From the NCBI GenBank assembly GCA_018398765.1, contig JAHBMJ010005945.1:22501-68206 (forward strand): a stretch of DNA of 45,706 bases, given 5' to 3'. The stretch comes from Chromera velia. Lineage: Eukaryota; Sar; Chromeraceae. The notes under the pieces are model-generated. The model ran no database searches, was not told the DNA's origin, and saw nothing but the letters and a program-made list of their open reading frames with translations. The translations under genes were made by a program, and so were the position numbers. Of this stretch, positions 18,501-45,671 are shown piece by piece. How positions within the stretch are numbered: the stretch's first letter is position 1; each line of letters opens with the position of its first letter.

Positions 18501-19005
18501 TCCACCTTGCGCGAGGGCTTTGCGAACATCTTGCTGCACAGAAGGAGAGGTAGTAAGAGGATGGGAGGTCCAGAAAGAGGCGCAGCGAGTGAGAGCATCA
18601 CTTGATTCTCTTTTCGCTGAAAGCATGAGTGTCTGAATGAGTGAGTACATGGACGACTGAGCAAGTGAGGGAATGAAACGGAAAATGATATCACTCTCTG
18701 AATCGCTGATCAAGGCACCCTTTTCAGATTCCACGTCAGATTGTCTCAAGCGCACACATTGCGTGCACAGAGCTTCGAGAAGAGGGTGGTATCGAAACCG
18801 TGTCTGACAGAAGAAACGAGCGAGCAGAAGAGAAGGGAGAGCCGTACAGGAACCACACAGCATGAAGAAGGCAAAGAGGCAGAGAGAGAGAAACTGAAGC
18901 CTGGAAGGAAGCAAGGAAGGAACACACTGGAAGGAACCAGCATGGATTAGGGATTAAGAAGATGAGACCAAACAACAAATGGACTCACTCCGACGATCAC
19001 TTGAT

Positions 19006-19047
<42 letters not shown>

Positions 19048-19983
19048 TGTGTGTCTGTGTGCCCCCCTCGACTCACATTCACAGGTTTAGGTTCAGGGCT
19101 CCAGAGAGCATTGCCATCAGTCCCGACGCCGATTTTGATGCCGTGCATTCGCTCGGGGCCTTGCCCTTCGTAGACTGCATGGATGGATGCGTCAGAGGAG
19201 ACAGACAGACAAGCGGGTGTGTGTGTTTACCTCCACGTATGTGTCTTGAGATTGGCGCAAAGAAAATCTTCCTGCCTGTCTACCTGCCTCTCCAACTTGG
19301 TGACTCATGTGCAGGGCAATCGACTCTCCTGCTCTGCTCTTTGCTTGCCATAATGGCCTTCCTTTTGTTTTGATGTGTGTCGTTAATTTACGCACTCTCA
19401 CGAGCACTCACTCACCTTGAAGCACTCACTCGTCTCTGAAGGCAGAAAAAAAGGTCAGAAAGGCTAAGGACGCTTCTGGGCGAGCGGGTCATAGCAGGGA
19501 GGAGAGATGGCGGCGACCGATTGAAAGAGAGAACACAAAAAGAGAGAGGGAGACTGGAGGAGACGGACCAACGACTGGTGCTGGAGGGGCCTCTGGGGGC
19601 GGCATGATCTGAGGGAACGGTTTTCCCTCCTCCGCCGCCACAAACATCTCAGGAGAGGGAGGGCCCCTCTGCACCCCCCCTGCTGCATCGGAGGGGGGAG
19701 GGAAGGGGCCGCGCCCCCCCGCCCCGCCCGGAGACGGGGGAAGGGGTCCGGCTTGCTGTGGAGGGGCTGGCTGATTAGGTGCCAGTGCCTTGTCTCTCTC
19801 TTCTGACAATTGCATCGTGAGGTCATTGACTCTTTTGAAAGCCCCAAAGGAAGGCAGCTGGGGGCGGTGCTTTTCGCTGAGCTCTTTGACAAAGAAGAAG
19901 TGGAGAAGGAGCCAAAGGACTCCCGCCACTAAAAAGGTAAATTGCATCAGACGAGTGAACGTCAGTCGTCCGAACAGACTCAT
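12072..19983 (-). CDS. Polypeptide N-acetylgalactosaminyltransferase (GT27) with C-terminal R-type lectin domain, 16 exons, 805 aa
   Basis: The enzyme transfers GalNAc from UDP-GalNAc to Ser/Thr of secretory proteins, the first step of mucin-type O-glycosylation in the Golgi. Exons: 19983-19569, 19174-19077, 18533-18152, 17701-17625, 17282-17144, 16934-16733, 16320-16236, 15879-15803, 15322-15245, 14890-14789, 14413-14201, 13895-13824, 13459-13365, 13296-13260, 12888-12765, 12293-12072. All join in phase. Residues 1-15 are cytoplasmic, 16-33 form the type II membrane anchor, and a coiled and Pro-rich stem runs to about 138. The catalytic domain shows GGFNLALSNSISLNRP, TSVIFVFFNEPLST, VDDGSD, the Mn-binding DSH (320-322), GW.EPL, MAGGLFA, YWGTENLELSF (GTEN replaces the usual GGEN) and WQCGGSLE with CSRVFHVFR (His456). 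The lectin domain starts at Cys553 and ends with QVWQW near 732; a Gly-rich tail follows. The end of exon 1 and the N-bearing exon 6 border are the least certain points. Confidence 0.9.
13555..13822. repeat. (GACT/GACG/GCCT)n tetranucleotide array within a GalNAc-transferase intron
   Basis: About 260 bases of imperfect GACT, GACG, GCCT units on the plus strand. On the coding strand this is GTCAGTCAGTCAG starting directly at the 5' splice site after the exon ending at 13824. Confidence 0.85.
15494..15553. repeat. (TC)n and (GT)n microsatellite in an intron
   Basis: About 32 bases of alternating CT, then a short GT tract. It lies between the exons at 15879-15803 and 15322-15245, so it is non-coding. 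Confidence 0.85.
16734..16734. other. Single N at the expected exon 6 / intron border of the GalNAc-transferase gene
   Basis: On the minus strand the catalytic block runs ...ELSF and then the unknown base plus G. The next exon begins with A, CTC, TGG, CAG. Base N + G + A would complete the Arg codon of the conserved SFR/WQCGG motif. The intron should start with GT immediately after, but the sequence reads GGGGCG. Bases are probably missing at the N. Confidence 0.7.
19008..19054. repeat. (TC)n(TG)n microsatellite in an intron
   Basis: A CT run passes directly into a GT run, immediately 3' (minus strand) of the exon ending at 19077. It is non-coding. Confidence 0.85.
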
Positions 19984-20705
19984 CCTGGCTGGGCGTCTTC
20001 TTCAAGCTCGACAAAAACCCGGGCTTCGGAGGGTTATTGGGGCCTCTGGGTAAATTCAAACAAAAGAACCACACACAGCTTCACCACGACAAAAGGAAGA
20101 GACAAATTACAAGCGGAGACTGCACTTTCACGTATCCACAAATTAATTGGTTCCTGCCAGACCTCACCCTCCGACCTTCCGTGGAAGTGTGACAGAGCAC
20201 CGTTGTCCTTTTTTGACACCTCAAGGAATCTTACAACGTTTCGACCATACGTGTTACGATCGTACGGGCTTTCATGCTACTAAGTATGCTTGCCTTATCA
20301 TGAAGGAGACTTCAATTTCGAGATCGATCGACGCGCGAATTCAAACTTAATTTTTCGGACGCGGCCGGCGGCGGATGCGGGCCGGGGGGGCGCGCGGGCG
20401 GCACCGCCGTGCTGCATGGGGGGCTAATTAATGCATGCGATCGGACGTCTCTGATCGCGTCTCTCTCAAGTTTGATCAAAGTTCGAAACTGTTCGATCTC
20501 AACCCCTGTTCGAACGAAGCAAAGGTTTCTCCAGTCATTTGGACGCGTGCTTCGAACGATGAAGCACGCAGGCTGCAATAGAGATTCACAGGGGAACCGT
20601 AAGTCCATGCGATCTGCAGAGAGAACGTTTTCTCAGTTTTCGGTTTTGACTGTTCCGCTTGTCGAACAAAACCTTTTTCTGATTCGATTGTAAAGGCTTT
20701 GTCTC
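19984..20705. promoter_or_regulatory. Divergent intergenic region between the GalNAc-transferase and the small membrane protein gene
   Basis: The two start codons, minus at 19983 and plus at 20706, face away from each other across about 720 bases. So both core promoters probably lie here. A very GC-rich patch (20355-20405) is present, as are several CGATCG words. No TATA box or known motif stands out. Confidence 0.4.
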
Positions 20706-21733: not shown

Positions 21734-22551
21734 TGTGTGTGTAGACATGTATTCCTTTCTCCCTCTCTTTCACTGACACCTGCAGGAGGACGAGAGGGAG
21801 AAGAAGAGAGTGCAGGAGGAAAAGTCAATGCTGAGGACGGAACTGGACCAGCAAGTCCAGGAGAAAATGTGCGTGCGTCAAACGAACAACAGAAACATTC
21901 TCAAAGACTCAAAGGAACAACAGCCACCCCTTCCTTGCATGATTTGGTTTCAAGAAAATGTGCAGACATCAACTCAATGACAGATAGACACACAGGTACA
22001 TAGATATGCACAGACCCCCTGGTGGTTCCATTTTCTGGTTCTGTCCCTGTGGAAACATTTCCGTCTTGACGTTCTCCTTTCTCGACTGGCTTTGAAGTTT
22101 ATCCTTGGGTGCGAGGCGATGTCTTTCCTTTCTTTCCTTTACTTGCCTTGGGTTTTTTTGTTCGTTGTCTGCGTCGCCTCTCCTTGCGCTTCCAGCCAAT
22201 CCTTCTTCGTAGCATCTGGCCTCGACCGTGGCTTGGAATTGAGAGAACCCCTCAACAGGGACAAAAAGATGCAGTCGAAGCAGGACGAGATGAAAACGCA
22301 CAGAATGGAACAGTGGCGGGTGCCAAGACGGTAGCTCTTGTCTTTTTTCTTTCTACTTCTCTGATCCGCGTTCTGCTTTCTCCTTTGCTGCATGCAGAAG
22401 GAGCACATTGACAGAATCGCCCCACGATGTCTGCAAGGACCTTCAAAGGGGTGTGCGCGTCCACCCTTCCTTCCATCCTTCCTTCCTTGCTTCCTTCCTT
22501 CCTTCCTTCCTTCACACAGCCTCCCTCATGAGCCTCAGGGGGAGTGCATGA
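21660..22551 (+). CDS. Exons of an unrecognised coiled-coil protein (5' end not found)
   Basis: Four exons agree in phase: 21660-21688 (GDKKHFVKKL), 21786-21868 (EDEREKKRVQEEKSMLRTEL and on), 22196-22330 (SFFVASGLDRGLELREPLNR, then a Lys/Gln-rich helix ending EQWRVPR) and 22398 onward, with the first in-frame stop at 22549-22551. The first two would form a charged coiled coil. The last runs through CCTT repeats before the stop, so its true end is doubtful. No start codon with a good context lies nearby. These may be 3' exons of the gene just upstream, or an independent gene. Function unknown. Confidence 0.4.
21701..21742. repeat. (GT)n microsatellite at an intron start
   Basis: An alternating GT tract lies right after the GTACGTACGTAC donor of the intron 21689-21785. 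Confidence 0.85.
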
Positions 22552-27290: not shown

Positions 27291-29582
27291 TCACGGGGAT
27301 TCCGATGTCAGGCTGTCTCTCTGTGCACCCGCTTCAGATTCTTCGCCTGCAAGCACCGAAAGGGGCTAGAGGGGTGTGGACAGCCTGAGGGAACATGAAT
27401 CTGCAGTGGCTCTTCAGTCATTCGGTGATACGTACGCTTCATGCATTTCTTTCTGTCAATTGTTTGTTGCCCTGATTCAGAATGTCCTTTGTCAACTCAG
27501 ATAAATTCCTGTCATGCGCCCACTGTTCATCAATTTCCATGCAGCCTTTTTTTCACCATCAGTTTGTCGACCCATTCGATCATCCGGTCATTGATGGTTT
27601 CATTTGTGTGCGCATTCATGCATTCTCCTTGACTTTTTTGTCCATTCATCGATTCGGTCAGTCAGTCAGTCAGTCAATGAGTAATCCAGTCGATCATCTA
27701 CTGACCCGTTTCTCTTTCAGACTGACTTTCTCTTTCTATCTCCGTCACTGTAGCATCAGCCGCGGTCGCAGAGGATTCAGACTGGGCGCGTGCTCCTCTC
27801 ACATCGTCTGCGCTGTCTCTGCCAAAGTGGAAAAGGGCCTTCTCGAATTCCTTCTCCGCCGGTTCCTTTCCGCCCTCCCTACCTGCAAGATCTAGAAGGA
27901 AACGGGGGTGCAGAAGGGGCATAAATCTGCAGTGACTTGTCAGTCGTTCCATATGCGCTTCATTCCTGTTCTCCCTGTCCTGAATATTCTTTGAATTCTC
28001 AATTTTCAATCACTTACTGAGCCGCCGATTGAACATCTCAAAGACGCATTTGTCTATTCACCCGTCCGTCTGTCAGCTCATCCACTCATTCATTTATGTG
28101 CTCATTCATGCATGCATTCATTCATTCATTCATTCATTTATTCCTTTATCTTAGACTTTTCTTCTATGCACTCATTCATTCATTCATTCATTCATCTATG
28201 CACTCATTCATTCATTCATACATGCATTCATTCATTCATCTATGCACTCATTCATTCATTCATCTATGCACTCATTCATTCATTCATTCATTCATTCATT
28301 CATCCAAGCAGTCATTCACTGATCTATTCATGCACTCGTTCATTGAGTCGGTAAGTCACTGCGCGAGTAGTCCAGTCAATCAGTCAGTCAACCAATCAAT
28401 CATCCGCTACATATTCCACTGACCCTTCTCACTCTCCGTTTCGCTCTCAGGGTCTTCGGAGATTGTCAGCACTTCGTCTGAGTTGCTGGATACGGACTGA
28501 GGGGGGGGGTAGACGGAAGTTGCCACCGGTGGACTGTTCGAGGCAGCAGGATCTTCGGAGATTGTCAGCACTTCATCTGGGGTGCTGGATACGGACTGAC
28601 GGGGAGGGTAGACGGAAGTTGCCACCGGTGGACCGTTCGAGGCAGCAGGACCTTCGGAGATTGTCAGCACTTCATCTGGGCTGCTAGATACGGACTGATG
28701 GGGAGGGTAGACAGAAGTTGCCACTGGTGGACCGTTCGAGGCAGCAGGATCTTCGGAGATTGTCAGCACTTCATCTGGGCTGCTGGATGCGGACTGATGG
28801 GGAGGGTAGACAGAAGTTGCCATTGGTGGACCGTTCGAGGCAGCAGGATCTTCGGAGATTGTCAGCACTTCATCTGGGCTGCTGGATGCGGACTGATGGG
28901 GAGGGTAGACAGAAGTTGCCACCGGTGGACCGTTCGAGGCAAACTTGTCCCCTCCAACCCGTCTTCCGAATATCCCGCCTCCGAATCCCCCCCGTGCAAG
29001 TGGAGTTGGTGCTCTTTCTTGTGCGGCTCGGGCAGCTGATTTTATTCGCACTTGTCGTACTGGGACTTCTTCTCCCGCTTGCCTCCCTGCCGAAGCCCGT
29101 GAGAGTGTTCCTGCCCGAACAGAGGAGGAAGACGGCAGCGGGACAGGCGGGCTGGAGAGCGCCGGACCTCGCATCCCCCCTCCGAGTGACCCCCCCTTTC
29201 TCGGGGGAGGGAGGCCGGGTGCCCACCCTTCCGCCCGAAGTTGGGCTTTCCAGAACTCAGCATCGTGTCTTTGTGGGGGGCTGACTGGCCGGTTCTGTGC
29301 GTTTCTGTGGGGGCTGTTGTTGTCTTTGTTTTCATTATCTCTGCGGATCTGTGGCTTCAAGATGCTGGTGACCACACGATTGACTCCTTGGGCATCTACC
29401 CGCACAGTCCGTTGCGGCTCCTTCCTCTCTCCTGAGGCTCCCGATTCCTCCCCAACCGATCTTCTGTCACCCCCACTGGCAGGAGTCTCATGAGGGATCT
29501 GTGGGTTTTTGTGTGCGTCCGCCACTCGCTTGCCGTCCTGCCCCCTTTCCCGTCCCCATTGATGATGTCTTTTGTCCTGCAT
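27291..29582 (-). CDS. Low-complexity protein with five 33-residue tandem repeats, 3 exons, 456 aa
   Basis: Exons 29582-28424, 27882-27727 and 27346-27291 join in phase and stop at TGA. The N-terminal half is polar and rich in Arg, Gly and Pro, with a segment DAEFWKAQLRAEGWAPGLPP. Residues of about 215-380 are five copies of a 33-aa unit built on ASNGPPVATSVYPPHQS and a SPDEVLTISEDP end. The C-terminus is rich in Glu, Ser and Ala (EKEFEKALFHFGRDSADD). No signal peptide or membrane segment is present. It is probably an intrinsically disordered, possibly phosphorylated protein. I do not recognise a family. The last codon region CCC|gtgaga is also a good donor, so a further exon is possible. Confidence 0.65.
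28091..28325. repeat. (ATTC)n tetranucleotide array in an intron of the repeat protein gene
   Basis: Imperfect CATT/ATTC units over more than 200 bases, within the intron between 28424 and 27882. The plus-strand frames through it (repeated His-Ser-Phe-Ile) are artefacts of the repeat. Confidence 0.85.
28451..28940. repeat. Coding minisatellite, 99-base unit x about 5
   Basis: The word TCTTCGGAGATTGTCAGCAC recurs (with one substitution in one copy) every 99 bases from 28453. The units differ by only a few bases. The unit length is a multiple of three and it lies wholly inside the first exon of the minus-strand gene. Confidence 0.95.
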
Positions 29583-30882: not shown

Positions 30883-33800
30883 ATGATTTCCAGGCAAAAG
30901 ATCTGTGCGACTGGGTGGGCCCTCCTCCTTGCTCTGTGGGCGAGGTCTGTTGCAGGTGCCACCATCAAAATCGGGATCATGGCACCCTCCACAGGAACTG
31001 GTCAGATAGAGCACCCATGGCTCTGCAATGCAGTCACCTACTTTCTTGCATATCGATCACCTGATACAATTACGCAATGCACGGGAAAGGCGCACACGCT
31101 TCTACTAGTTTCTTTTGTCTGCGGCCACTTCAGCAACTCGTCTCCACTGAATTCCGAGACATGATGCATGCATGCATGCATGTGTACATGCACGTGCATG
31201 CACTGACAGCATCGGAAAGTCACCCACATGCAGAATCGAGAGAGCAAGGTGCACCCCGAACTTCAACAGAGCACAGAGGCATCTATCTTTGGCATTTTGC
31301 ACTGCACAGTTTCGTGCCATGCATGTGAATTATGCATTCTTCCTTCCTTCCCTCCCTCCTTCAGCTGGGTACATTATGGACGCCGTGATGCCGATTGTGA
31401 ACATCTCCGTGGCGGAGGTGAACAATAACGGGGCCGTCCTTCCATCAGGTCCGTTGCCTTGCACAACTGCAAAAGAGTTTGAAAGACAGCTTCGAAAGGA
31501 AATCAGAGAGAAACTTCAGGGGTTGAGGACTCAAAAGAAGGAACCACAGTGTTGAGGACACATTCAGAAGGAGAAAGAGACAGAGACACGACCACAGGGA
31601 CTCTCTGTGTTGCTTTGTTTGGCTTCCTTCTGCGTCTTCCTGCAGACACAATTGCTTTGAACTTAATACAGGACACGGGGTGCGACCAATATGTTGCTGC
31701 GGGAGTAGCCCCTCACTTTGTGGAGACGGATAGACCGGCACTGGTGGTGGGACCTGCTTGCTCATCGGCAGCCACGGGGGCAAATTTGGTGGGTCGATCT
31801 CTCTGCCTGTTAGTCTGCTTCGTTGTGTTTCTTCCGATGAGTCTGTCCGTCTGTCTGTCTATTTGCCTGTCTGTTTCTTTAATTGTATTTACGTATTTAT
31901 CACTTTGTTCTGACTAGCCATCTCTTTTCTGCTGCATGGGCTCTTTGCCCGTCTGGCTCACTGTCTAAAAGACGGACGTATGAACAAATCCGATCGATGG
32001 GGAATAAACGTCCCGGTGGACTTTGGCGGAATGATCAAGGAACACAAAAGAGCATTGCATAGGTCGTTGAAGACAGAAAGAAACGCTCAAGTGTTCGCTT
32101 CATCTCCACATGTCAACTGCCTGCCTGCCTGCCTGCCTGCCTGTAGGTCTTCACTGGCTTCAAGATCATTCACGTCTCTCCATCAGCTACCAGCCCCACT
32201 TTGTCAGACAGCTCGACTTTCAAAGGGCTTCTTCGAGTCTTTCCGGTGGTGGAATACATGGGACTGGCAGGGCTGATGAACTCGTTCAACGTTGGAAGGT
32301 TTGTCCGTCTTTTTCGCCTTTGCGTCTGTTTGTCCGTCTGCTTGTCTGTCTGCCCGTGGGTCTGTTTGTCCGTCTGCATGACTGTCTACTTGTCTGTTGT
32401 GCGCATGAAGAGAGGAAGAGTGGGAGAACAAAAACATACAGTCTGTCTGTCAGTCCAAATGCCTGTCTGTCTATCTGTCTGTCTGTCTGTCTGTCTGTCT
32501 GAGGGAAAAGAAGAAACCGTATAGTCTGTCTGTCTGTCTGTCTGTCTGTCTAGAAAGGAAGAGAAAAGGAAAGAAAAGACGATGTAGTCTGTCTGTCCTT
32601 CTCTCTGCCTTTATCGACGCAACGTGCATGCCGTGTGAGCGTGGAGAGGCAAAAAATCTACGATCAAATCGACCCTCGAGAAGGAAGAATCCTCTCTGCC
32701 TCTTTTTGTACTTGATGCATGCATGGGAGGTTTCTTTCTAGTGCTGACAGACGCTTCCTTCCTCATTCATTCCTGCATCCATCCATGCGGCATTTTCCCA
32801 TCCCTTTGCTCTGCTTCCTGTGTGCAGGTACGGAATCGTGAGCACCGACCAAGGTGAGCTTTCAATCAGTCGGTCGAGAATGAGACAGAACAGGCGGTTG
32901 TTGACGGACCCGCTTTAAGCTTTCAACCAGTACATAAAAATGGAAATCAAGGGAAATTGGGGAAGATGATATGATGTCATGTCTCTTCATTCAGCACTGA
33001 CGCCCGGCTTTGTGCTTTCCCTTTGCCTTGCAGACGTTGCACTGAGCACCGTGGCCGGTCTGAAGGCGCAATTTCTCTCGGCCGTGCTGCTTTTTGAGGT
33101 TCAGCTGGCAGCAAGCAGCATCGCTGTGGGGACAGATTTGTTCGACTCGACCATCGATCTCATGCGAAACTCTGACGTGAAGGTGGGTGGGTGGGTGGGT
33201 GGGTGGGTGGGTCAGTCGAGAATGATGAAATTGATTGGTGGGCGTGGCTGCGTCGTGATATGGGGCACTTGAAAGTTTGTCGCAGAATACACTGTCAAGA
33301 AGGCAGTGTGACACCGTACAGTCAGTCAGTCAGTCAGGCAGGCAGGGAGGAAGACAGCAGACGGCAGGCAGTCAGTCAGGTGTTCTTGGACTAAGCCATA
33401 CAATGTGGTAGCTTGGCACACATGCAGGACGGTTGAAGGAAAAACAACCATTTGATGCTGGAATCGCGCCTAGACTTTTCCTCCTACATTACTCGTAAAG
33501 CGAAACAAGTTGGTTCCCTTTTTGAAGCTTGACCGACGGCATGATCACATCAAAGTCTTCGACTGTCTGTGTACGTGTGCACTTTTGGTACGACGCTGAG
33601 AGCAACCCTGCATGCTGTTTGCAGGTCATCGTTCTTGCCGGATACGCAAATTTCCTTCTGGGCCTCTGGTGTGCTGCGTACAAAAAGGGATTCTACGGTA
33701 ACGACATCATGTTCATCTACACCAACTGGTCGGTGGGTCGATTAAAGAATTCATGCATGATTGAGAGCAATCACTTTGGGCGCGCAAACGTGAACCTCGG

Positions 33801-36800
33801 AAGTCATCCTTAAGGCTTTAGCCAGTCAGCTAGGAGATTGGCGCTTTGCTGTCTCCCGCCTGGGGTCCAGAGGGGTCGACAAAGCCACTAGCGGACATGC
33901 ACGAGGAATTTCCCGTCAGCGCCCATTCAGTGAGAGCTTCCCCAAAAATACCGCCAATCTCTGTTTCTTCTTTTCTCCCTTCGCTGCCTTCCCTCGTGTT
34001 TGTTCGTGCGACTGACTGACTGACGCACGCATCGCACCTACTGCAGGGTACAGGCCAACTTCATGACCACCGTGCCGACGCTGACCGACTGCACGAAAGA
34101 GCAAGTCCTCCTGGCCTCCAGCAACGCATTCGGCACCTACGGGCCCCTCTTCCCTGTGGACTCCTCAGCTGAGGCCTCCACCCAAATGAGTAACGGGAGG
34201 ACGCCGGCCCAGGTCAAGACGGAATATCTGGCAGCCTGCGGGTCCAGCTGCCATGAGGTGCGTGAGTGAGTTTGGTCTTTTTGCTGTCGGCATGCAATCA
34301 CTGCCCTATTTTGTCGGTTGTCTCCCACATCAATCACATTCCCAAAGTGAGCAGGTCTCAAATCCGTGCACACCCACTTCCATTCTTGGTTCTTTCACGC
34401 ATCATTCCTTCCAAAAGACCACGTTACGACCATCCATCCTCCATCGGTAGATTTTCCTCTTCTTCTATCGTCCGGTGCTGTGCATGCATGCAGGCTCTTG
34501 CCTCCCTCTACTACGACGCGATGTGGGATTCGTTCTACGCTCTTCACAACTTCATGAACAACGCCGCGACCTGGACAGCAAACGGGCTGAGCTCTTCCGG
34601 TGCGTTCGCGAGGGGCTTCTTTTCTTTTCTTTCAGGCGTGTAGAGGATCGATCGATCAATTATGCATTTGTTTCTTGATGGCTCTTTCATCCCATGCGCG
34701 CTCTGACTGCATGCATGCAGACTTCGGGACCTCCCCTGACCCCAAACGCACACAGCTGTACGACGGCCTCTATGCCCAGTTCCTCTCGAACAGCTTCACG
34801 GGTATCACCGGGGCCCTCTCCCACGACGCGAATGCGGACAGAGAGGGGAGGCTCACCATCACGTCAGTCGATCGATCGTCTTGATTGGATTCCCTTCTTT
34901 TTGTGGCGATTGATCGAGTCAACGAAACGCAGACAGAACATACCTCTCTTCATGCACCCCTTCATACATTCATACACGCATTCATGCTGTCTCTGTGTGT
35001 GTGCGTGTGTGTGTGTGAGTGTGCAGGTGGATTGACTGGCACTCCGGAAGCGGGGAAGTGATCACTGCGGGAATTTGGGACCACATCTCAAGTTGGTTGA
35101 TGGATCGGTGCAGATCTTCAGTTTTGTTTCCGAGATAGGGCTTCTCCAGTCTTGTAAGGAACATGCATTTCACATGATGCCACTCGGTCAATTCAGTAGC
35201 CGTCAATTTCCCCGCGGACATAGATTCTCATCCACTTCCGGAGCGCACATATTTGCTGACCTGGTTCGCTCTCTCCTTTCTTGATCTCTTTCTTTGTGCA
35301 GAATCAGTATCGTGGCAGAGGACAGTCTACCTCCGAGACGGCCAGACGCACGCACCATCTGCGGGCAGCACGGCTGCATTTGCCGACGCCCCAATTACGT
35401 GTCCAGCAGGTCATTATCTACCCACATTCATAAGCGTGCCTCTGGTCTTCTTTTTTTATGGCTGCAGGATGAGCGCGGCCAGCTTATCTATTTGAGGACA
35501 ACAGTGCGTCGATCTACTTTCACCTCCTTCCTTATGCCTAGCTCGCATACAAGCATCCCTTCCCAACTGTCTTTCCACCCCCCGGCTCATAATGCTTAAT
35601 TGCCTGCGTGCGTGCCCCGCCTGCAATTTTGTTCTGTACTGGTTTCTCGATTTCTCTCAAACTCTCGCTTTTCCTTCCATACACGCGAGTTGAACCTGCA
35701 GGCACCCAGCGCAATGCCTCCCGTACCTGTGAGCTCTGCCCCCCGGGTCAAATGAACAGCGCAGAGGACGGGAGCTGCGTCGAGTGCGGGATTGGGACCT
35801 ACTCCAGCGCTGAAGGGGCCACTGAGTGTTTGGCGTGTCCGGCGGGGACTTTTGCTTTCGGTACAGGTCTGTCTGTCCTCCTACCTCCACTGCTTTTGTA
35901 AAGTAGCTGAAGCTCCGTTGGTGCCCTGCTACTGCAGTAGCTGTCATTTGCATGGATTGGGTTTCTTGTAAGATTTCCGCGTGTTTTTTCCCGGAATTCG
36001 AGGTCTACATGGGGTCTGAGAGAGAGAGGGAGAGAAAGTATTCTTGAGGGACGAAGAGCAATCACTTCCGTATCATTTCTTTCTGAACGCAGGAACTGTT
36101 ACGTGCCAGAACTGCACAATCGGAAGAGCAAGAGCAGCAGATACCGACGCCTCTGAATGTCTCAGGTACGCCACAAAACCTGTGGGTCCTCTCGCATCAT
36201 GGACCCGCATGTATTGTATTCCTAGCAATGCACTTGGTTCCTTTCTCTTGCCCGTCTCTTCTTTGATCTTCTATTCAAGATCCTTTGTACGTTTTCCTTC
36301 CGCCTAAATGACTACGGCATTCGGCTTCCTCGGACGGTTGTCTCTCTCTCCCTTTCTTTCTCGCGTGTATGCGTATGGTTGCATGATGAGGCATGTATGT
36401 CCTCACGACAATGATCGGACAACCACCGCTGCATGCAGGTGCGAGGTGGGATACTACCAGGAGAAGGAGGGCCAGGCAGCCTGCATCCAGTGCCCGACGT
36501 CATTCACCACGGCCTCGGAGGGAGCCAGCGTCGCTTCGGACTGCCGATGCCCTCCCAATACGTATCTCAACAGAAAGGTCAGTCAATTGACCAAAAAGTG
36601 AATGAATGGATGCATAACTCCAAGTCCGTCATTGTTCAGTCCAAATCAGTCCGAATAAAATAGATCAATCGTGTAGTAAATGGCAGCCCCCGATCCGTAT
36701 CAAGTACGTTCGTGAGCAAGTGGCTGCGCAGACACACCAGTGCAGCTAGGCTTGCTGAAAGGAAGACAGGCCCATGCACGCGTTCGTGTCTGTACATGCA

Positions 36801-39800
36801 GTCGGCAGGCAAACTGTTCGTGCAAGGCACAGCAGAGCGATTCCAGTCCAATCGATCAGAGAATTAACAAGCTTCGATCCAAAATGTCCTCTAAATTGTC
36901 ATGTCATGTCATGCGTGCAGAGCAACTTATGCACGAGCTGTGCCTCCTCGTTCGAGGAGCTGGACTGTCCGGGCGGCTCCGGTCTTCCTTCCTTGAGTCC
37001 CGGCTTCTGGGCTCTGCCTCTGGAGTCGGAGGAGGCAGTGACTTTGTTTGAGAAAGCCACGATCTATGTCTGCAAGTAAGTGGACTGCCTGCATGATCCT
37101 CTCCTTGGCTCCATGCAATCTGTCTTGAAAGCACACACGTACTTTCTCATTGATTCTCGGTGACCGCATAGTCGAGGGCTGTCAGCAGTCCGAGGTGCAA
37201 ACAAGACCGGGTTGAATGGAGATTCTCCCAAGGAGTCCGAAGTAAGACGTACATGAACCGACAAAGAATACATTGCATAAATTTTTTTCTGCTCTGAAAT
37301 TACCGGAAGTCGGAGGGATCATTTTTGCGATGCCAAAGGTGTGACATAAAGAGACCAGCGAGTTGCAGACACATGTCCTTCGCTCGATCACCCCCCCTGC
37401 TGCTGCCTGCATGAATGAAACAAAACAGAGATCGCGACGCCTGTCTTGGGGGACCTCTCTCTTCTCTTGGGAACGCCTCTGTGGTCTCTGCCAGCTCTGC
37501 GCCGTCCTCCTTGTCCGGCTGTAAGGGGAAGCGCATAGGGTTTGTGTGCGACGAGTGCCCGTTGGGGTACTTCAAGGTCAGACGGCTGCAGGAGGGGGCA
37601 GAAAAGGGCCTTCAGGAGGACAGTCCATTTTTCGTCTGTGGGTGTCTGTGTTTTCGTCGTTTGTTGGAATGACAAACGGCGCTTGTTCACTTTTTCCCTT
37701 GTCGTCATGTTTTCCTCCGTCGTTCCAAAACCTGCTGCCTGCTGTGTTTGGACAGAAGTAAATCAACATGGGCAGGGCACGAGAGCCAAATGGGTCTGCA
37801 GGTCGATCGCTGTTCTCCTCCACTGACTGACTGTGATTAGCAGTGGGACAGGCGAATTGAACCAAATAAATACTTCGTCCTTCGAATTCAATTGTCCGAA
37901 TTCTGTTCCACCATGATGCAGACGGACTGCCGCAAATTCTGACAGATGCAAACATTGATTGCACGCCCCCTCTTTTCCTCCTCTCCCTCCTTGAATTTTG
38001 CAGAACAACGACGATGACTGTTCTTTGTGTTCTGGGAACTTCTCCTGGCCTTTTTTTGTTCTTTTTGTTGGCTGTCTGCTCGTGGTGATCTTCCTCTACT
38101 ACAACATCAACGGAAGGTACACGCCCAGGTGGGCGCCTCTGTCGGCAGCCATCACGGCAGCCACACTCACAATCGTCTTCATGCAGGTAGGTAGGTCAGG
38201 GGGTCTCCTTGGAGAGGAGGAGGAAAGATGGGATGCATGGGTGAAATTGCGCTTTTTTACTATGCGGACCGTCTCATGATTTCTTCTTATGGAAGCTCGC
38301 TCTTGCATTCAATAAATCAGAATGACCGAGTAAGTGGATGGATCAGTATGAATGACAGACAGGCGCGAGTGCATACCGGCTGTCCAAAAACAATCTTTGT
38401 TGGCACTTGAATGAATGAATGTGTGTTCAATGCTGGACTGCATATGAGTACATGAGGCAGGAAGCAAGAGCGAGCAAGTGATAGCCACCCTAATGACACG
38501 GAAGGGAAGAGCGCATCTCCCAGGAGAATGGATACCCACTGACTCACTCACACTCCTTCTTGCTTTCTCCCTCCGTCCCTGTCTCTGTGCGTATACTGGT
38601 GGAGTGAGTGCGTGGGCGGGACGACTAAGGACGCTCATGCATCTGCTCATGTGGGTCCATGCAGCAAGTGGCCGTCCTTGTCAGCATCGACATCGCCTAT
38701 CCGACGATAATCAAGGCCATCGCCCGGGCTGTGAAGATTCTGTCGATTGATTTCGACACGCTACAGTGGTCCGCTCATTTGTGTGTAGCCACATGGAGAT
38801 TGAGAGTCGGTTTCAGCGATTGGAGCTTCATTCATTCAGACTCTGGGTACACAGGCAGGCAGCAAGACATTCTTGAACATTGTAGTGCAATTTCGCCTAG
38901 CTCCCTCTTCTGAAAGTCCTGTTTTTCTTTGCTGAGTGCATTTCGTCTGACACCATTCCTGCGTGTGGGTAGCTGCCTCTACATCTTTTCTGTATTTTTG
39001 CGCAGCCAAGTAGTGCATTTTGCTTTGTGTCAACATCAATGAGTGTGGAGTGAGGGCGTGCTGTACGCATGCGTGGGTTCATGCATGCAGGGACTGTATG
39101 GTCGAATCCAGGAAGCCTTTCAATCGTTATGCGTTTCGTCTTGCTCTCCCCTTGTTCTTTTCTGCGGCACTCTTCGGAACCCTCGGCCTGACCTACCTGC
39201 TCCATCTGTACTTCAGACAGCGCCTCTTGCCGTGGGAACTCAATAAGGTCAGCGAGTAAGTCGAATGAAAAAGGTGCAGGAAGGAAGCCAAACCTACAAA
39301 GAGCGAGAGGTGGGAAGACAGACCGGCGGCCGGCCTATGATTTTTTCTGTGCACTGGGTAAGTAGTAGGGGGGGGATCTTTGCAATTCAGCCTGAAGGTC
39401 CATGCAATCTGCATGTAAAACTCTCTGCCAGCCATCGAGTACATCAACAAACTTCTTTATCTTTTTGGCCTTTTTTTGTCCTGTGTCTTCTCTCTCCGAT
39501 GTCTGCAGGCGCTGAACACTTTGGGTTTTGTCATCTCGGTGTTGTATATATGGGTGTCTGTCAGCTGAATCGATCTGCTCTCTTGTGAGTTGGTAGCTCG
39601 GCACTCAAAAGTGAATTGGGCCTTTGAAGCCAATACCTTAGCTGAACCCTTCCTGATTGAGGAGCACTATTTAGCAACACGATTGTGAAAGGAAGGCATG
39701 CAGAAAACCGGTCAACAGTCTGAGATATGAGCTCAGTTAGAGAGGGAGGTGCTGCACGCAAAGACATTCCGAGAGGCTGCGGAGAATAATCACAACAAGA

Positions 39801-41239
39801 GAAGAGAAGCCTATCAAAGAACAGAGAGAAAGTAGACACAGTGCCTAGAGGCAGAATGAATGCGTCCAGCGGAGGGAGACTTCAAATGTCTCTTGACCTC
39901 CCTCTTGACCGTTGTATGCATGCACACATGGATAGGCATTTTTTGCATTGCTGTGCTCAATGTATGTATGTGTGCATACATGCAGCTGTGTGTCAGTTCT
40001 GTCTGCTTTCGATTGTCGGCACAATCCTTCGGGCGACGTGACTCTGAGGGAGTATCCGTCTGTCTTCTGTGGAAGTGAAGGTGCGTCCGTCAGCTTTTTT
40101 TGTCAAAGCGGACGGCAAGGAAGAAAGAATGGGGTGTCGCTCGGTTTCTCTATCCCTCTCTCTGTGACTTCGTTTTTTCTCTTTGTGGCGTTTTTTCACT
40201 TTTCTTTTGCATACATTGTGAGAACTCGCATGTCGCTGTCTGTCTCCAATTTGACTTGACAAAAGTGGTTGTTGCCGCTTCGGTTCTTTTCTTCGCGTCC
40301 AAATCTCACCGGCATATGCAGGTGGCCGGTTAATTCCCTGTATGCAAATGGATGGATGCACTTGCATGAATCCCCCTTCCTCCCTACCTTCCTTTCTTCC
40401 TTCCTTCCTTCCATCCTTCCTTCCTTCCTTCCTTCCTTCCTTACTTCTTCCTTCCTTCCTTCCTTCCATCCTTCCTTCCTTCCTTCCTTCCTTACTTCTT
40501 CCTTCCTTCCTTCGCTCCTTTCTTCCTTCCTTCGCTCCTTCCTTCCTTCCTTCCTTCGTTCCTTCGTTCCTTCCTTCCTTCCTTCGTTCCTTCGTTCCTT
40601 CCTTCCTTCCTTCCTTCCTTCGTTCCTTCCTTCTTTTTCCTTTCTTCGTTCGTTCCTTTCTTCTTCCCTTCCTTCCTGCGACCTTTTCTTCTTCCCTTCC
40701 TTCCTTCGTTCCTTCCTTTGTTCCTTTCTTCTTCCCTTCCTTCCTTCGTTCCTTTCTTCTTCCCTTCCTTCCTTCCTTCCTTGCTTCCTTCCTTCCTTCC
40801 TTCCTTCATTCGTTCGTTCCTTCCCTCCGTCTTGCAGAGCATTTTGCGTTCCAGCTGCTTGGCTGGTTCGCCATCGCTTTGTACATTGTTGCCGTCATGA
40901 CGTTCGTTGGTGTAGTGATCTTCAAGGTGCCTATATGGAACAACGTGTATGAGGGGTTCGGGGTCAGGTCAGTGGACTGGGTGCAGAGAGGGGAATGGAT
41001 CGAGTGGCTGTTTCTTTTGAGTTGCCTGAATGGATGCGGGTTTCGGTGTGGAGTGCATTCCTTAGTCATTCATGTGAAATTAAGGCGGGCTCTTGTACTG
41101 CACAATTGGTTTCAAGCTTGTATCCGTGACTGTATTCTGTAATGTACCCGTGACGGTGTTTGCAAAAGATCGATAAGCCGATGATCGATTCTTGCCTCAC
41201 TCACTGGCTATTCTTTGGAATGTGATGAATTTCTCTTTC

Positions 41240-41319
<80 letters not shown>

Positions 41320-44300
41320 TTCTTCTGATCGATCCTTCCTCCCATGCATGCAGGTATAAATTCCTGTTTGTGAGGTTCCAGCCCCGCTACTGGTGGTGGG
41401 GCCTCGTGTATACTCTTTATGTCAGTCTGTCTGTCAGGATGGGCACATGCAGAAAGTCAGGCCGCTTCTCCCTCTCCACCCAGAGAGCACACGGACCGCA
41501 CCAGCTCTTCTCCCTTCCTCTCCCTGTCTCTCTATCGCCAGCCCAGTGTGCAGCTCTGCAGAAAGAAAGAAAAGCAAAAGTCTGCCTTGAGGTGCTGCGA
41601 GCTGAGTTTGCACCTCTTTCTCCTCAAAACAACTGCTCCTTTTCCTTCATTTGTGCGTGGTTCAGTATGTGGGAGCTGAGCGACCAACTAGCTCTTGTGA
41701 TTGAAGGCACAAAGTCCGTCCAGCGATTGTTTGCCTGCCCGTACGTCGTTCCAGCTGCTTCTTCTCCTTCTGCTTCTGTGCATGCAGAATTTTTCGGTCG
41801 CCCTTGCTCCTCTCTTGGAACCGGGTGAGCAGTTTGCTAAGCGTCTGTTGTTTCTGTTGATTCTCTGTCTTCCATGCATGGGCTTGCATCGCGTCTCCGT
41901 TTCCCCATGTGTGCGCTTGTCCATCCATTGTACTCCATGTCCTTTTGCCGTACACCGTCCTCACCCCCCTCTTGTTGTTTGAGTTTTCCTTTTCGACTTT
42001 CTTCTTGCCTGCGTCTGATGTTCTTCTAGTTCTGTCCGATCTCCCCCAATGCTTTCGATTTTTTTGGACTTGTTTGGGCGTTGTGTGTGCGTTCGAGCGC
42101 CTCAAATACCATTTCCCTCCTATCATTAACGCTCTCTGGTCGTTACTTCTTTTGCTGCCTCCCTCCCTCCGCCCCTCCCTTATTTATTCCGTTTGCAGAT
42201 GATGCCAGGATTGCAGTGCTCATTCTCTTTATCTTCACAGTGGTCAATTTAATCTTTCAAGTGTCAGTCTCTACCTGTGCCCCCTCCTGCTAAGGTTTTC
42301 TGCGTGTCAGGAATCCATCCGAAGCATGTGGATCGCTGACACTCAAAGACTCCGAAATTGGGAGTCGATCAGCAAGAGAGAGAGAGAGAGAGGGCACGGC
42401 GCCTTTCTTTTCTGTGCCTTCTGTGTTCCTTTTTTGTGTTGTCGATCTGCATTGCACACGAGAAGGAACGCACGTGGATCGACAGGCCGGCCGGTTGCTT
42501 ATCTTCTTTGTCTCTGAAGCGTGTGAGAGAATATGGATTCCTTCTCCTCCGCATCATTCGTCTGAGCAGGCAATACAAACCTTGGAATGATGAGTCAGTC
42601 TGCCTATCTGTTTGTCTGCACGGGAAGGACCGTCAGGTGACTTTCTTTCTCGATCAACTCTGCCGTTCTTCTTTCTTGGATGTATAAGGACGACTTCAAC
42701 GGGCCAGGAGGCAATAAAATTCGCCTGAAGGACGGCTCTTCTTCCCTTCATTCAATAGAGCGCACACACAACCTCCCGATCTTCTTTTCTCCTCTCTTCT
42801 CTTCTCCAGACCTCAGACATGTACAAAAAGCTCATCTGCTCGCTCTTCAATGAATAAATTCTGGAGAGAGATTTTGTTTTTTAGAGAGGCGAACTCGGTT
42901 TCAACGTTCTCAATTTGACCGCTTTCATGACCAATCTCTCCGTCTCGCTTCCCGTGTCCAGTGGAAAGATATGAATTGACTGATCGATCGATGAACGCTG
43001 CCTGCCTGCAGACTGAACAACTTGATTGATCTGGTCCAGTCGTCTGCGTACATGTTCCTCTGCTTCATTGGCATCGCGTATTCGAAACAGACAGACAGAT
43101 CGGACAGCGCTCTTGCCATCGTGTCCGTGACAGTCATAGGTCAGTGAAAAGCTGGATGAGCGGGTTTCAGTTCGAAAAGAGTGCTCAGGAGAATCGTAGC
43201 AAAATCCAATTGTGCCCTTTTGACGCGGAAGCCGAGTAAGGCAAGGCCTTCGTGTCGTTAACGGGAAGGGAGTTGGTGCCTGAATTGAATCTGCCTAGAT
43301 AACTTTGAATAATGGGACAAGCTTCGCATTTTGATCTATCGACTCTTGCGCGGCGTTACAGTCAGCTCAGAGTGGCATCCTCATTTGTGTCGGGTCTCTT
43401 GCTTCCGTTTTCCGTCTCTTCCTGCCTTCATGCACGCAGTTGCTGGGGGAGTTCTCGGTCTGGGAGTGATGGCTCGTGCGTTGATTGCCCTCTGGCTGAA
43501 GAGACGCACTGCTTTTTTGGAAAGACGAAATGTCGTGCGGGTCGCTGGCAACACTCTGAGAGCAGCGGGCCTTCTTGTGAAGGAGGCACAGGAGATGAAC
43601 GAGCATGCGGGAGAGGAACATGAGTCTGAGGGGGTAATTGTGGGAGAGGGGGTGTCTCCATGGGAAGCAAAGTTTATGGACCTCTCGAAACAAGACATGG
43701 GGACTTTAGAGTCAGTCAGCCACTTAGTTAGTCTCCTTATTTCTTCAAACAGGTGTTTCAATCATGGCATCGAGAAAAGTGACTTCCTCTCTGACTCAAC
43801 CGATTCCGAGCTCTTTCGCTTGAGGCCTCTCAAACGAACAAGTCCTACAGTTCAAGACTACTTTTTGTCTCCTCTCCACTGCGTAGCTTTGAGATTCATT
43901 TCGGCACCGAGAGAGATGCAGTGAGGAACACAAGAGCTGTAAATTGAACTCTGCACTGGCTTTTTCTTTCTGAGTCACGATGTTGCTTTCTGATTACTTC
44001 TTCTTGTTCCTGTTCTGCGCATGCAGTCTTTTCTACGAGCTTGCAATGCAAGAGCTGGTCACGTTCGCCGGGCTGCTGCACCACAGAGCCTCGACGAGAC
44101 TGAAGACAAGCAGACGGCCGCTGATAGGGGCAGACAATCACGAACTGAAGCGGGGACTTTCATCCACCCGGAAGCCGCGTGCGACTTTCCTTGAGTTTGT
44201 CAGACACGACCCTGAGGCAAAAGGGGAAGAGGAAGAGGAAGCATATAATTGCAACGGTTCTCAGGGAAATTTGAAGAACTCTGAGAGGGGGAGTGAGAGA

Positions 44301-44573
44301 GGGGCCTCAGTCGACGACTCATGGGCGGTAAAGGAAGAAGGAGGGGAAGACGGAGATGTGTGGCCACAACTCGCGAGCAGGAAGAGCAAGAAGGAGGGCT
44401 CTGAGTCGCACAATCCGTACCTTCCCCCCCCTCTTCCAGATACTCCGCTTGATGACCAGGAACTTGAAGCAGAGTATGACTCTGAGGGGGATCAGGGGGA
44501 CTCGATTGTCGGGGAAATTGTTGTTGAGATTGGGGACGAAATGGGAACTGAAGAGGCGATTGAAGGGAGTTAA
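30883..44573 (+). CDS. Receptor-like membrane protein: signal peptide, PBP1/ANF-type ectodomain, Cys-rich repeats, ~9 membrane segments, acidic tail; 30 exons, 1317 aa
   Basis: Exons, all in phase: 30883-31000, 31365-31448, 31646-31788, 32147-32298, 32828-32853, 33034-33182, 33625-33728, 34047-34257, 34494-34599, 34721-34862, 35027-35091, 35302-35409, 35702-35866, 36093-36165, 36439-36577, 36921-37075, 37429-37576, 38004-38186, 38665-38780, 39091-39247, 39509-39555, 39986-40080, 40838-40967, 41354-41420, 41788-41824, 42199-42262, 42570-42593, 43012-43139, 43440-43710, 44027-44573. Residues 1-26 are a signal peptide. Residues 27 to about 433 resemble periplasmic-binding-protein type 1 / ANF-receptor domains (IKIGIMAPSTGT, AVMPIVNISVAEVNNNGAVL, ALVVGPACSSAATG, IHVSPSATSPTLSD, LRVFPVVEY). 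Residues about 466-705 are Cys repeats of the ephrin-receptor/TNFR type (CPAGT, CELCPPGQMN, CVECGIGTYSS, CLACPAGTF). Hydrophobic helices lie near 709, 740, 812, 850, 900, 950, 978, 1012 and 1040. The last 250 residues are Glu/Asp-rich. It probably senses an extracellular ligand at the plasma membrane; the ligand and output are unknown. Confidence 0.88.
32429..32560. repeat. (GTCT)n arrays in a receptor-gene intron
   Basis: Several runs of GTCT lie in the intron 32299-32827, which opens GTTTGTCCGTCT. Non-coding. Confidence 0.85.
33183..33212. repeat. (GTGG)n tract beginning exactly at a 5' splice site
   Basis: The exon ends GTGAAG at 33182 and the intron is GTGGGTGGGTGG... for about 30 bases. 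The first GTGG is the donor itself. Confidence 0.85.
40375..40825. repeat. (CCTT)n pyrimidine tract of about 450 bases before an acceptor
   Basis: Imperfect CCTT/TTCC units fill the 3' half of the intron 40081-40837 and run up to the CAG at 40835-40837. The long Phe/Pro/Ser and Lys/Glu/Gly frames here are artefacts. Confidence 0.9.
41244..41331. repeat. (CT)n microsatellite before an acceptor
   Basis: CT units with scattered TTT interruptions, inside the intron 40968-41353. Confidence 0.85.
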
Positions 44574-44810: not shown

Positions 44811-44909
44811 ATATTTTTTTAAAAAATCTCTACTACTAGAATCTCTAGCTCAAAAACAAAATAATAATAGACTATATAGTCTTATTTTTAATTATACAAT
44901 TTGTACTAA
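44811..44909. repeat. Left copy of a perfect 99-base direct repeat (target-site duplication)
   Basis: Identical by eye to 45573-45671 at a constant offset of 762. It is AT-rich, contains CTCTACTACTAGAATCTCTA and ends GTACTAA. The copies border an insertion that ends in a simple-repeat tail. Confidence 0.9.
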
Positions 44910-45572: not shown

Positions 45573-45671
45573 ATATTTTTTTAAAAAATCTCTACTACTA
45601 GAATCTCTAGCTCAAAAACAAAATAATAATAGACTATATAGTCTTATTTTTAATTATACAATTTGTACTAA
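45573..45671. repeat. Right copy of the perfect 99-base direct repeat
   Basis: Partner of 44811-44909. The lack of differences points to a recent insertion. The last 35 bases of the window follow it and are featureless. Confidence 0.9.

Follow-up and report, generated by a model that had tools for sequence, protein, structure and literature searches.

The window, a stretch of 45,706 nucleotides from a contig of Chromera velia, contains a gene whose predicted protein combines a signal peptide, a Venus-flytrap domain, a Cys-rich region, a multi-pass membrane domain and a C-terminal tail (Table 1). Flytrap, Cys-rich part and helices follow one another as in metabotropic glutamate receptors (mGluRs). 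This raises the question of whether the protein is a class C G protein-coupled receptor (GPCR) or whether a flytrap has been placed on a membrane domain of another kind.

Table 1. Features of the receptor-like gene, in window coordinates
Feature	Position	Strand	Basis
Whole gene, predicted receptor-like protein of 1313 aa	30883..44573	+	30 exons rebuilt by hand from raw sequence
Signal peptide, residues 1-25	30883..30957	+	Judged by eye from a basic N-terminus, a hydrophobic core and small residues preceding the cut
Venus-flytrap / ANF_receptor domain, residues 27-433, exons 1-11	30961..35091	+	Pfam PF01094, PF13458; GABA-B likeness
Ser107, aligned with GABA-B1b Ser130	31762..31764	+	Alignment, counted by hand
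Thr130, aligned with GABA-B1b Ser153	32189..32191	+	Alignment, counted by hand
Tyr231, aligned with GABA-B1b Tyr250	33643..33645	+	Alignment, counted by hand
Trp259, codon split by intron 7, aligned with GABA-B1b Trp278	33727..34047	+	Alignment
Cys-rich region, residues 466-705: ephrin-receptor-like repeats, then a final CxxC motif ahead of helix 1	35397..38030	+	Pfam PF07699
Membrane domain, residues 709-1061, nine hydrophobic helices	38040..43498	+	Hydropathy; PF06011 (TRP) on residues 934-1060; paralogue conservation
Acidic C-terminal tail, residues 1063-1313, predicted cytosolic	43502..44570	+	Composition

Gene structure and paralogues

The rebuilt gene starts with the ATG at 30883 and ends with the stop codon at 44571-44573. 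All 29 introns are GT-AG, and the 30 exons form one stop-free frame. An earlier note on this DNA had described 30 exons joined into a single protein of 1317 residues; the exon count and the single open frame stood, while the length came to 1313 aa, presumably because of a different splice choice. The junction chosen between exons 21 and 22 is supported by both C3826 and C2099, the two close paralogues of the gene.

The paralogue search used a spliced aligner written for this work, which was validated only on residues 601-1100 of the window protein, where it exactly recovered 14 exon pieces. Elsewhere in the genome, five loci carry flytrap, Cys repeats and membrane part, and a sixth has the flytrap and the membrane part. 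The count of flytrap loci is a minimum, since the genome search with the Pfam ANF_receptor profile missed the flytraps of the window gene, C3826, C2099 and C1680 because they are split by introns. One in-frame stop is present in C3826. Within the compared spans, 22 of the 24 window intron positions are common to C3826 and 20 of 23 to C2099. The dN/dS ratio of the window gene is 0.14 against both, at dS values (1.78 for C3826, 2.95 for C2099) that are near or past saturation. No relatives were confirmed on viral contigs in two scans (2 and 36 pattern matches) or on prokaryote genome contigs in one scan (62 pattern matches), and a PDB sequence search with the membrane part returned nothing up to E 10.

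The gene model comes from genomic sequence alone, and two neighbouring genes or a faulty join might thus have produced a composite protein that is not real. At the six further loci, however, flytrap and membrane matches occur in the same order and on the same strand. At one of them, C3717 (locus L039), a single unbroken exon runs from the flytrap into the first Cys repeat (query 263-482), and a second one runs from the last Cys motif into helix 6 (query 659-976). Together with the conserved intron positions, this makes two genes or a faulty join extremely improbable, and the observation of a composite gene is confirmed.

The flytrap domain

The N-terminus has the basic start, hydrophobic core and small residues at the cut that are expected from the signal peptide described earlier, as judged by eye. 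The flytrap proposed for residues 27-433 was recovered by Pfam, with ANF_receptor (PF01094) matching residues 51-411 at 95.7 bits (curated cut-off 25.4; E 3.7e-27) and PF13458 matching at 9.9e-10. The closest solved structures are GABA-B receptors (9.1e-17 to 2.3e-11), and the alignment covers most of the flytrap length. Judged by these profile and alignment matches, the presence of a flytrap of the class-C/PBP1 type is certain.

In GABA-B1b, Ser130 is a ligand contact in lobe 1, Ser153 is a further ligand contact residue, and Tyr250 is an agonist contact in lobe 2 (PMC7411975). Four of the seven GABA-B1 contact positions that we compared are retained in the window flytrap, either as the identical residue or with Thr in place of Ser. 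Among the others, His170 is replaced by Phe, Trp65 aligns to a gap, and Glu349 falls on a Leu, although the alignment is uncertain there. Among the paralogues, the residue equivalent to Trp259 is Trp in the C3826, C2099, C3717, C3693 and C1680 models. The position of Tyr231 is Phe in C3826 and is not retained in C3693, while that of Thr130 is Ile in C1343. Since contact residues vary among paralogues and relative to GABA-B1, the ligand may differ by paralogue or may not be an amino acid.

GABA-B2 has a flytrap but is not the GABA-binding subunit. Such a precedent, and the several contact positions that are unlike GABA-B1, would fit an adhesion or structural surface protein in which the flytrap no longer binds a ligand and serves in dimer formation or cell contact. 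Nevertheless, the flytrap dN/dS against C3826 is low (0.09 at dS 1.60), and the Ser, Thr, Tyr and Trp contacts are all retained in the window protein and in C2099, so we regard this role as unlikely.

The Cys-rich region

Ephrin_rec_like (PF07699) matches the window protein in three stretches (66.2 bits, cut-off 23.1; E 2.3e-18), in agreement with the longer set of CxxC repeats reported earlier. The NCD3G Cys domain, typical of the mGluR/CaSR/T1R branch of class C GPCRs and also considered earlier for this region, was not supported: it reached 18.0 bits against a cut-off of 38.9, and its best score among the paralogues was 22.1 bits, in C2099.

The membrane domain and tail

A hydropathy scan read by eye gave nine hydrophobic helices, the number estimated before, and the loop charges are weakly consistent with an N-out, C-in topology. 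The tail of 251 aa contains 53 D/E and 29 K/R, and is thus about as long and as acidic as first described. Its dN/dS against C3826 (0.22) is the highest among four parts of the protein.

The earlier note held that the membrane part is unlike 7tm_3 and unrelated to known membrane domains of this plan. Pfam indeed listed no 7tm_3 match at E up to 10, either for the whole protein or for the membrane part alone. Relatedness is another matter, as PF06011 (TRP) exceeds its cut-off in the last four helices, 6-9 (30.4 against 28.5 bits; E 2.4e-7). The earlier interpretation is supported in part. This match covers profile positions 277-407, which is 131 of 426 and not the full domain. The window protein alone exceeds the cut-off, by 1.9 bits. 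Six relatives match below it: C3826 (2.5e-5), C3693 (1.9e-4), C3287 (4e-4), C1680 (0.0061), C1343 (0.0082) and C3717 (0.054, not significant alone). Thus, six of the seven scanned membrane parts that contain helices 6-8, the window included, have E < 0.01, and the matches of all seven overlap in one profile stretch. Of nine block-shuffled versions of the window membrane domain, five were scanned and none matched PF06011, which does not support a chance match from hydrophobicity. One of the shuffles instead matched DUF4731, an unrelated family, at 0.94.

A divergent class C GPCR, with a degenerate 7TM bundle, two additional helices and signalling through heterotrimeric G proteins, would explain the mGluR-like domain order and the GABA-B-like flytrap. 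Ephrin_rec_like repeats are also reported in choanoflagellate glutamate-family GPCRs (PMC12716839); those proteins are grouped by their class C 7TM, which was not found in the window protein. In addition, one of six G-alpha matches in the genome rose above the cut-off once neighbouring matches were added (53.4 against 48.8 bits). All six, however, are confined to profile positions 159-262, and the two that we inspected, including the best, resemble the small GTPases ARL3 and Sar1 by eye. The window protein shares the flytrap and the overall plan with GABA-B receptors and mGluRs, but it has nine helices rather than seven, its NCD3G score is below the cut-off, and a different Pfam family (PF06011) matches where 7tm_3 would be expected. 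A 7tm_3 search of the genome gave no matches, but it also gave none in 14 controls and is hence uninformative. Overall, a class C GPCR is very unlikely.

PF06011, the family of the fungal Flc and Pkd2-like proteins, is matched above the cut-off by helices 6-9 of the window protein but not by its first five helices. Fungal PF06011 proteins are not known to carry a flytrap or ephrin-like repeats. The window protein could be a ligand-operated cousin of them, a TRP/polycystin-like cation channel in which the flytrap gates a pore formed by the last helices. The recurrence of the PF06011 match in the relatives and its absence from the shuffled domains point in this direction. Fission yeast Pkd2, termed a polycystin channel, passes Ca2+ on membrane stretch (PMC11277609). 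The Pfam name TRP does not prove conduction, however, and less than a third of the profile is covered. No pore motif was identified in the membrane part, and a six-frame genome search with PF06011 matched no family locus and gave a weak match at C12. AlphaFold2 models of relatives were too poor to support a fold (locus L044 exon, helices 1-8, 7 rows: pLDDT 45.9, pTM 0.28; L039 exon, helices 1-6, 19 rows: pLDDT 52.4, pTM 0.40), and the 37 matches that Foldseek listed for the L039 model at E up to 10 included none < 0.001. A ligand-gated channel of this kind is therefore a minor, though real, possibility. From these profile matches, the membrane part of the family appears to resemble fungal TRP-like channels in part, and it does not look like a recognisable G-protein receptor.

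Similarity to cysteine repeat modular proteins

In Toxoplasma, rhoptry release is triggered by cysteine repeat modular proteins (CRMPs), which are reported to be numerous and diverse in Chromera (PMC9815656). Some of their Cys modules are ephrin-receptor-like, nine helices are predicted for those of Toxoplasma and Plasmodium, the C-terminal tails are long, and environmental sensing has been proposed for them (PMC9815656, PMC9670195). As far as these descriptions of CRMPs from Toxoplasma, Plasmodium and ciliates allow comparison, the window protein is alike: its Cys repeats directly precede the membrane core, nine helices are seen by eye, and its tail has 251 aa, compared with cytosolic tails of 478 and 565 aa in Toxoplasma CRMPs (PMC9815656).

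There are two apparent differences. The CRMP heads named in the available text of these papers are Kringle, MAR, C-type lectin and similar domains, with no flytrap mentioned there, whereas the window protein has a flytrap. The conserved CRMP core is said to hold two EGF-like domains by SMART (PMC9815656), while Pfam listed no EGF family in the window protein at E up to 10. The layout resembles that of CRMPs, and the two may be related. Dictyostelium homologues of CRMPs have been named (PMC9815656); therefore, if the two are indeed related, the membrane core extends beyond alveolates. Among the open-licence titles and abstract openings listed, none described a CRMP or TRP core headed by a flytrap, or a flytrap receptor of Chromera, although such a protein may well be published, for example in a supplementary table.

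Proposed function

The window protein is probably a ligand-sensing receptor, likely at the cell surface, with a CRMP-like layout of Cys repeats, nine-helix core and cytosolic tail headed by a class-C-type flytrap. A small carboxylate, most likely an amino acid or a close relative, would close the flytrap, and the Cys-rich stalk would transmit this movement to the nine-helix domain. The latter might then open a TRP-like cation path or alter the cytosolic tail. For such a receptor, a tail-based signal without a channel has close to an even chance, and channel activity is somewhat less probable. The resulting Ca2+ or protein signal may control regulated secretion or behaviour. A bolder and rather doubtful proposal is that the whole family consists of amino-acid-operated TRP/polycystin-like cation channels, with a class-C flytrap on a CRMP membrane core; CRMPs would then be related to ligand-gated sensors and have a pore as their core.

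Published accounts treat the way in which CRMPs perceive the host and set off rhoptry discharge as an open problem (PMC9815656, PMC9670195). A free-living relative with a CRMP-like core and a recognisable small-molecule clamp would offer an assayable input for the same kind of membrane domain, and Ca2+ entry is one concrete output to which the partial TRP match points. The predicted protein also shows that the class C plan of flytrap, stalk and membrane domain can be mounted on a different membrane machine.

Gene structure and intron positions

Open segments were listed and exons were joined by hand, which gave a stop-free gene of 30 exons with GT-AG introns that encodes 1313 residues. The earlier note had read one open protein over 30 in-phase exons, and this was recovered here, but its length of 1317 residues was not; the four-residue gap presumably comes from a differing splice choice. 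The exon 21/22 junction chosen here was also shown by both close paralogues, which are on contigs C3826 and C2099 of the same genome. Introns were at exactly the same positions for 22 of the 24 window introns within the span of C3826, and for 20 out of 23 within the span of C2099 (27 introns in each paralogue model). In another paralogue, C3717, a single open exon carries the flytrap and the first Cys repeat, and another carries the last Cys motif and helices 1–6, and thus the flytrap and membrane halves are linked in that paralogue. The individual parts are known and the composite gene is judged to be real.

Features in and around the gene are listed in the table. The perfect direct repeats, 762 bp apart and directly downstream of the gene, may stem from a mobile element or from a join made during assembly. 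The minus-strand region 18147–20001 looks by eye like a GALNT-type glycosyltransferase, and the tandem repeat may be a minisatellite.

Positions of features in the window
Feature	Position	Strand	Evidence
Flytrap, Cys repeat and nine-helix gene	30883–44573	plus	
99-bp direct repeats	44811–44909; 45573–45671		perfect
Open frame, 250 aa	44849–45598		Pfam Tlp 0.0018, below threshold
Glycos_transf_2 start	18147–18953	minus	Pfam 3.7e-6, 27.4 vs 23.3 bits
Open frame resembling a membrane anchor, near Glycos_transf_2 start	19492–20001	minus	
Tandem repeat of ~33 residues in open frame	28482–29036	read on plus	by eye

Flytrap domain and its ligand site

The flytrap check proposed in the earlier note, a profile search with ANF_receptor and Peripla_BP_6, placed both over their cut-offs (ANF_receptor 95.7 bits, residues 51–411; Peripla_BP_6 39 bits vs 31.7). 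Peripla_BP_5 was under its cut-off (11.6 bits vs 27), and an NCBIfam model of branched-chain amino-acid binding proteins matched residues 15–146 at 1.1e-11, far under the model cut-off (44.5 vs 477 bits). The closest solved structures are GABA-B receptors, represented by 16 different sequences with E values up to 2.9e-11, followed by mGluR8 at 5.7e-5.

Ligand-site positions were counted by hand in the alignment to GABA-B1 (4mqe_A), with the chain offset set so that Trp65 is at chain position 18; Glu349 is also a ligand-site position. Four of the seven contact positions are kept if Ser to Thr is counted as kept: Ser130, Ser153, Tyr250, and Trp278 of GABA-B1 correspond to Ser107, Thr130, Tyr231, and Trp259. 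His170 is replaced by Phe147, Glu349 aligns with Leu331 where the alignment is uncertain, and Trp65 is in a gap. Ligand-site roles of Trp65, Ser130, Ser153, His170, Tyr250, and Trp278 are described in the available text of PMC7411975. Read by eye, C2099 retains all four contact residues, C3826 has Phe at 231 and retains Trp259 (lobe 1 is outside the compared DNA), and Trp259 is also retained in C3717, C3693, and C1680. Tyr231 is not retained in C3693, and C1343 retains the Ser and has Ile in place of Thr130 (both by eye). These residues point weakly to a carboxylate as the ligand, and weakly to ligands that differ from paralogue to paralogue.

Cys-rich region and membrane domain

Ephrin_rec_like matched the window protein in three stretches (66.2 bits) and was over cut-off in all five paralogue models holding the Cys part. 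The NCD3G search proposed in the earlier note gave a match under cut-off (18.0 bits vs 38.9), TNFR_ELAPOR1 was also under cut-off (17.4 bits vs 33.2), and no EGF family was among the Pfam matches up to E 10. Near the last Cys motif and first helices, PF05571 JAMP matched under cut-off in the models of C3693 (residues 470–540, 3.3e-4) and C2099 (residues 652–736, 0.0011).

Hydropathy gave nine hydrophobic helices in residues 709–1061. When the membrane domain was aligned with three paralogues, 50 of 298 columns were invariant; Cys accounts for four of these ahead of helix 1, one in the helix 2-3 loop, and two between helices 4 and 5 (loops assigned by eye). That this part is unlike 7tm_3, as the earlier note claimed, agrees with the absence of 7tm_3 from the Pfam matches up to E 10, and a PDB sequence search with the membrane part alone found no relative up to E 10. 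PF06011, the Pfam TRP family, matched residues 934–1060 at 30.4 bits (cut-off 28.5). Among the seven scanned membrane parts containing helices 6–8, six had E < 0.01 (window protein 2.4e-7, C3826 2.5e-5, C3693 1.9e-4, C3287 4e-4, C1680 0.0061, C1343 0.0082; C3717 had 0.054), with only the window protein over cut-off, and all seven matches overlap in one profile stretch. PF06011 did not match the scanned parts that lack these helices (the C2099 model to residue 938, the C3454 fragment, and the first piece of C3826) and matched none of five block-shuffled membrane domains. Against the PF06011 reading, a six-frame genome search with this profile matched at C12 only, below cut-off, and at none of the family loci, and two structure predictions of the membrane domain were unsuccessful.

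Because neither 7tm_3 nor NCD3G matched over cut-off, the window protein is not classed, by sequence, as a class C GPCR. A G-alpha profile search of the genome gave six matches, all inside profile positions 159–262, and the best was over cut-off once neighbours were added (53.4 vs 48.8 bits). Two of the six were read, the best and the runner-up, and to the eye both resemble small GTPases (ARL3 and Sar1), so a G-protein route is without clear support; introns limit this search.

The family in the genome

The genome searched has 177.8 Mb in 4040 contigs, and the window is positions 22501–68206 of its contig C4016. The membrane domain matched 51 places on 18 contigs, including the window's own, and ANF_receptor matched nine places on seven contigs, an undercount since the window's own intron-split flytrap was missed. 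Four of these nine, on C3717, C3693, and C1343, adjoin same-strand membrane matches. The other five, on C2089, C2966, C3630 (loci L001–L004), and C973, are on contigs without a membrane-domain match and are other flytrap proteins. A more distant relative, locus L044 (G000:C3287:66000-69500), encodes helices 1–8 within a single exon and has a long hydrophilic insertion; it may represent a branch of its own in the membrane family.

Spliced models of C3826, C2099, C3717, C3693, and C1680 have the order flytrap, Cys repeats, helices, and the second flytrap lobe is present at least partly in every one of them. Identity to the window protein is 66.9% over 1120 aligned residues for C3826, 51.6% over 920 residues for C2099 (model reaching residue 938, at the end of the available DNA), and 34.1%, 31.0%, and 33.3% for C3717, C3693, and C1680. 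The model of C1343 (25.8%) includes the membrane part and segments of both lobes, and its Cys part was not recovered; the four weaker models (C3717, C3693, C1680, C1343) are unreliable at their ends. ANF_receptor scored 106.9 bits in C2099, 48.9 in C3693, 48.9 in the N-terminal part of C1343, 25.9 in C3717, 25.2 in C1680 (just below the cut-off of 25.4), and 15.8 in C3826 (half domain).

dN/dS against the window gene was 0.14 for both C3826 and C2099, and by part against C3826 it was 0.09 (flytrap), 0.11 (Cys), 0.14 (membrane), and 0.22 (tail); these values are rough because dS ranged from 1.56 to 2.19 across the parts of C3826 and was 2.95 overall for C2099, with two of its three parts saturated. 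Despite its low dN/dS, the spliced model of C3826, the closest paralogue (G000; L047, L016, L022, L037, L033), has one in-frame stop. The locus may have become a pseudogene recently, or the stop may come from an error in the assembly or in the model.

Comparison with known proteins and proposed mechanism

Among the literature matches listed, the combination of a flytrap, ephrin-like repeats, and nine CRMP/TRP-like helices is not described. The nearest published neighbour among them is the Ephrin_rec_like domains in choanoflagellate glutamate-family GPCRs, in the available text of PMC12716839, which reports the ANF plus NCD3G module from animals only. The combination is also unmentioned where the appendix of the chromerid genome paper treats extracellular proteins (section 55).

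Cysteine repeat modular proteins (CRMPs) resemble the window protein in their described layout: a set of Cys repeats, some of them ephrin-receptor-like, is followed by nine helices and an extended C-terminal tail (PMC9815656, PMC9670195, available extracts). Their core includes two EGF-like domains (PMC9815656, extract), whereas the window protein has no EGF match in Pfam. The same extracts (PMC9815656, PMC9670195) report that Toxoplasma rhoptry secretion requires CRMPs, that PANTHER labels CRMPa and PfCRMP1 GPCR-like, and that homologues are named from Dictyostelium; many diverse CRMPs are reported in Chromera and Paramecium, and a role in environmental sensing is suggested.

Its fold and the example of class C receptors suggest that a ligand would close the flytrap; the Cys stalk would presumably pass the movement on. 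The nine-helix core might then open a cation path, as PF06011 would suggest, or rearrange the tail, as in the CRMP model. Compared with CRMPs by layout only and not classed among them, the window protein would, by this analogy, work like a CRMP-type sensor.
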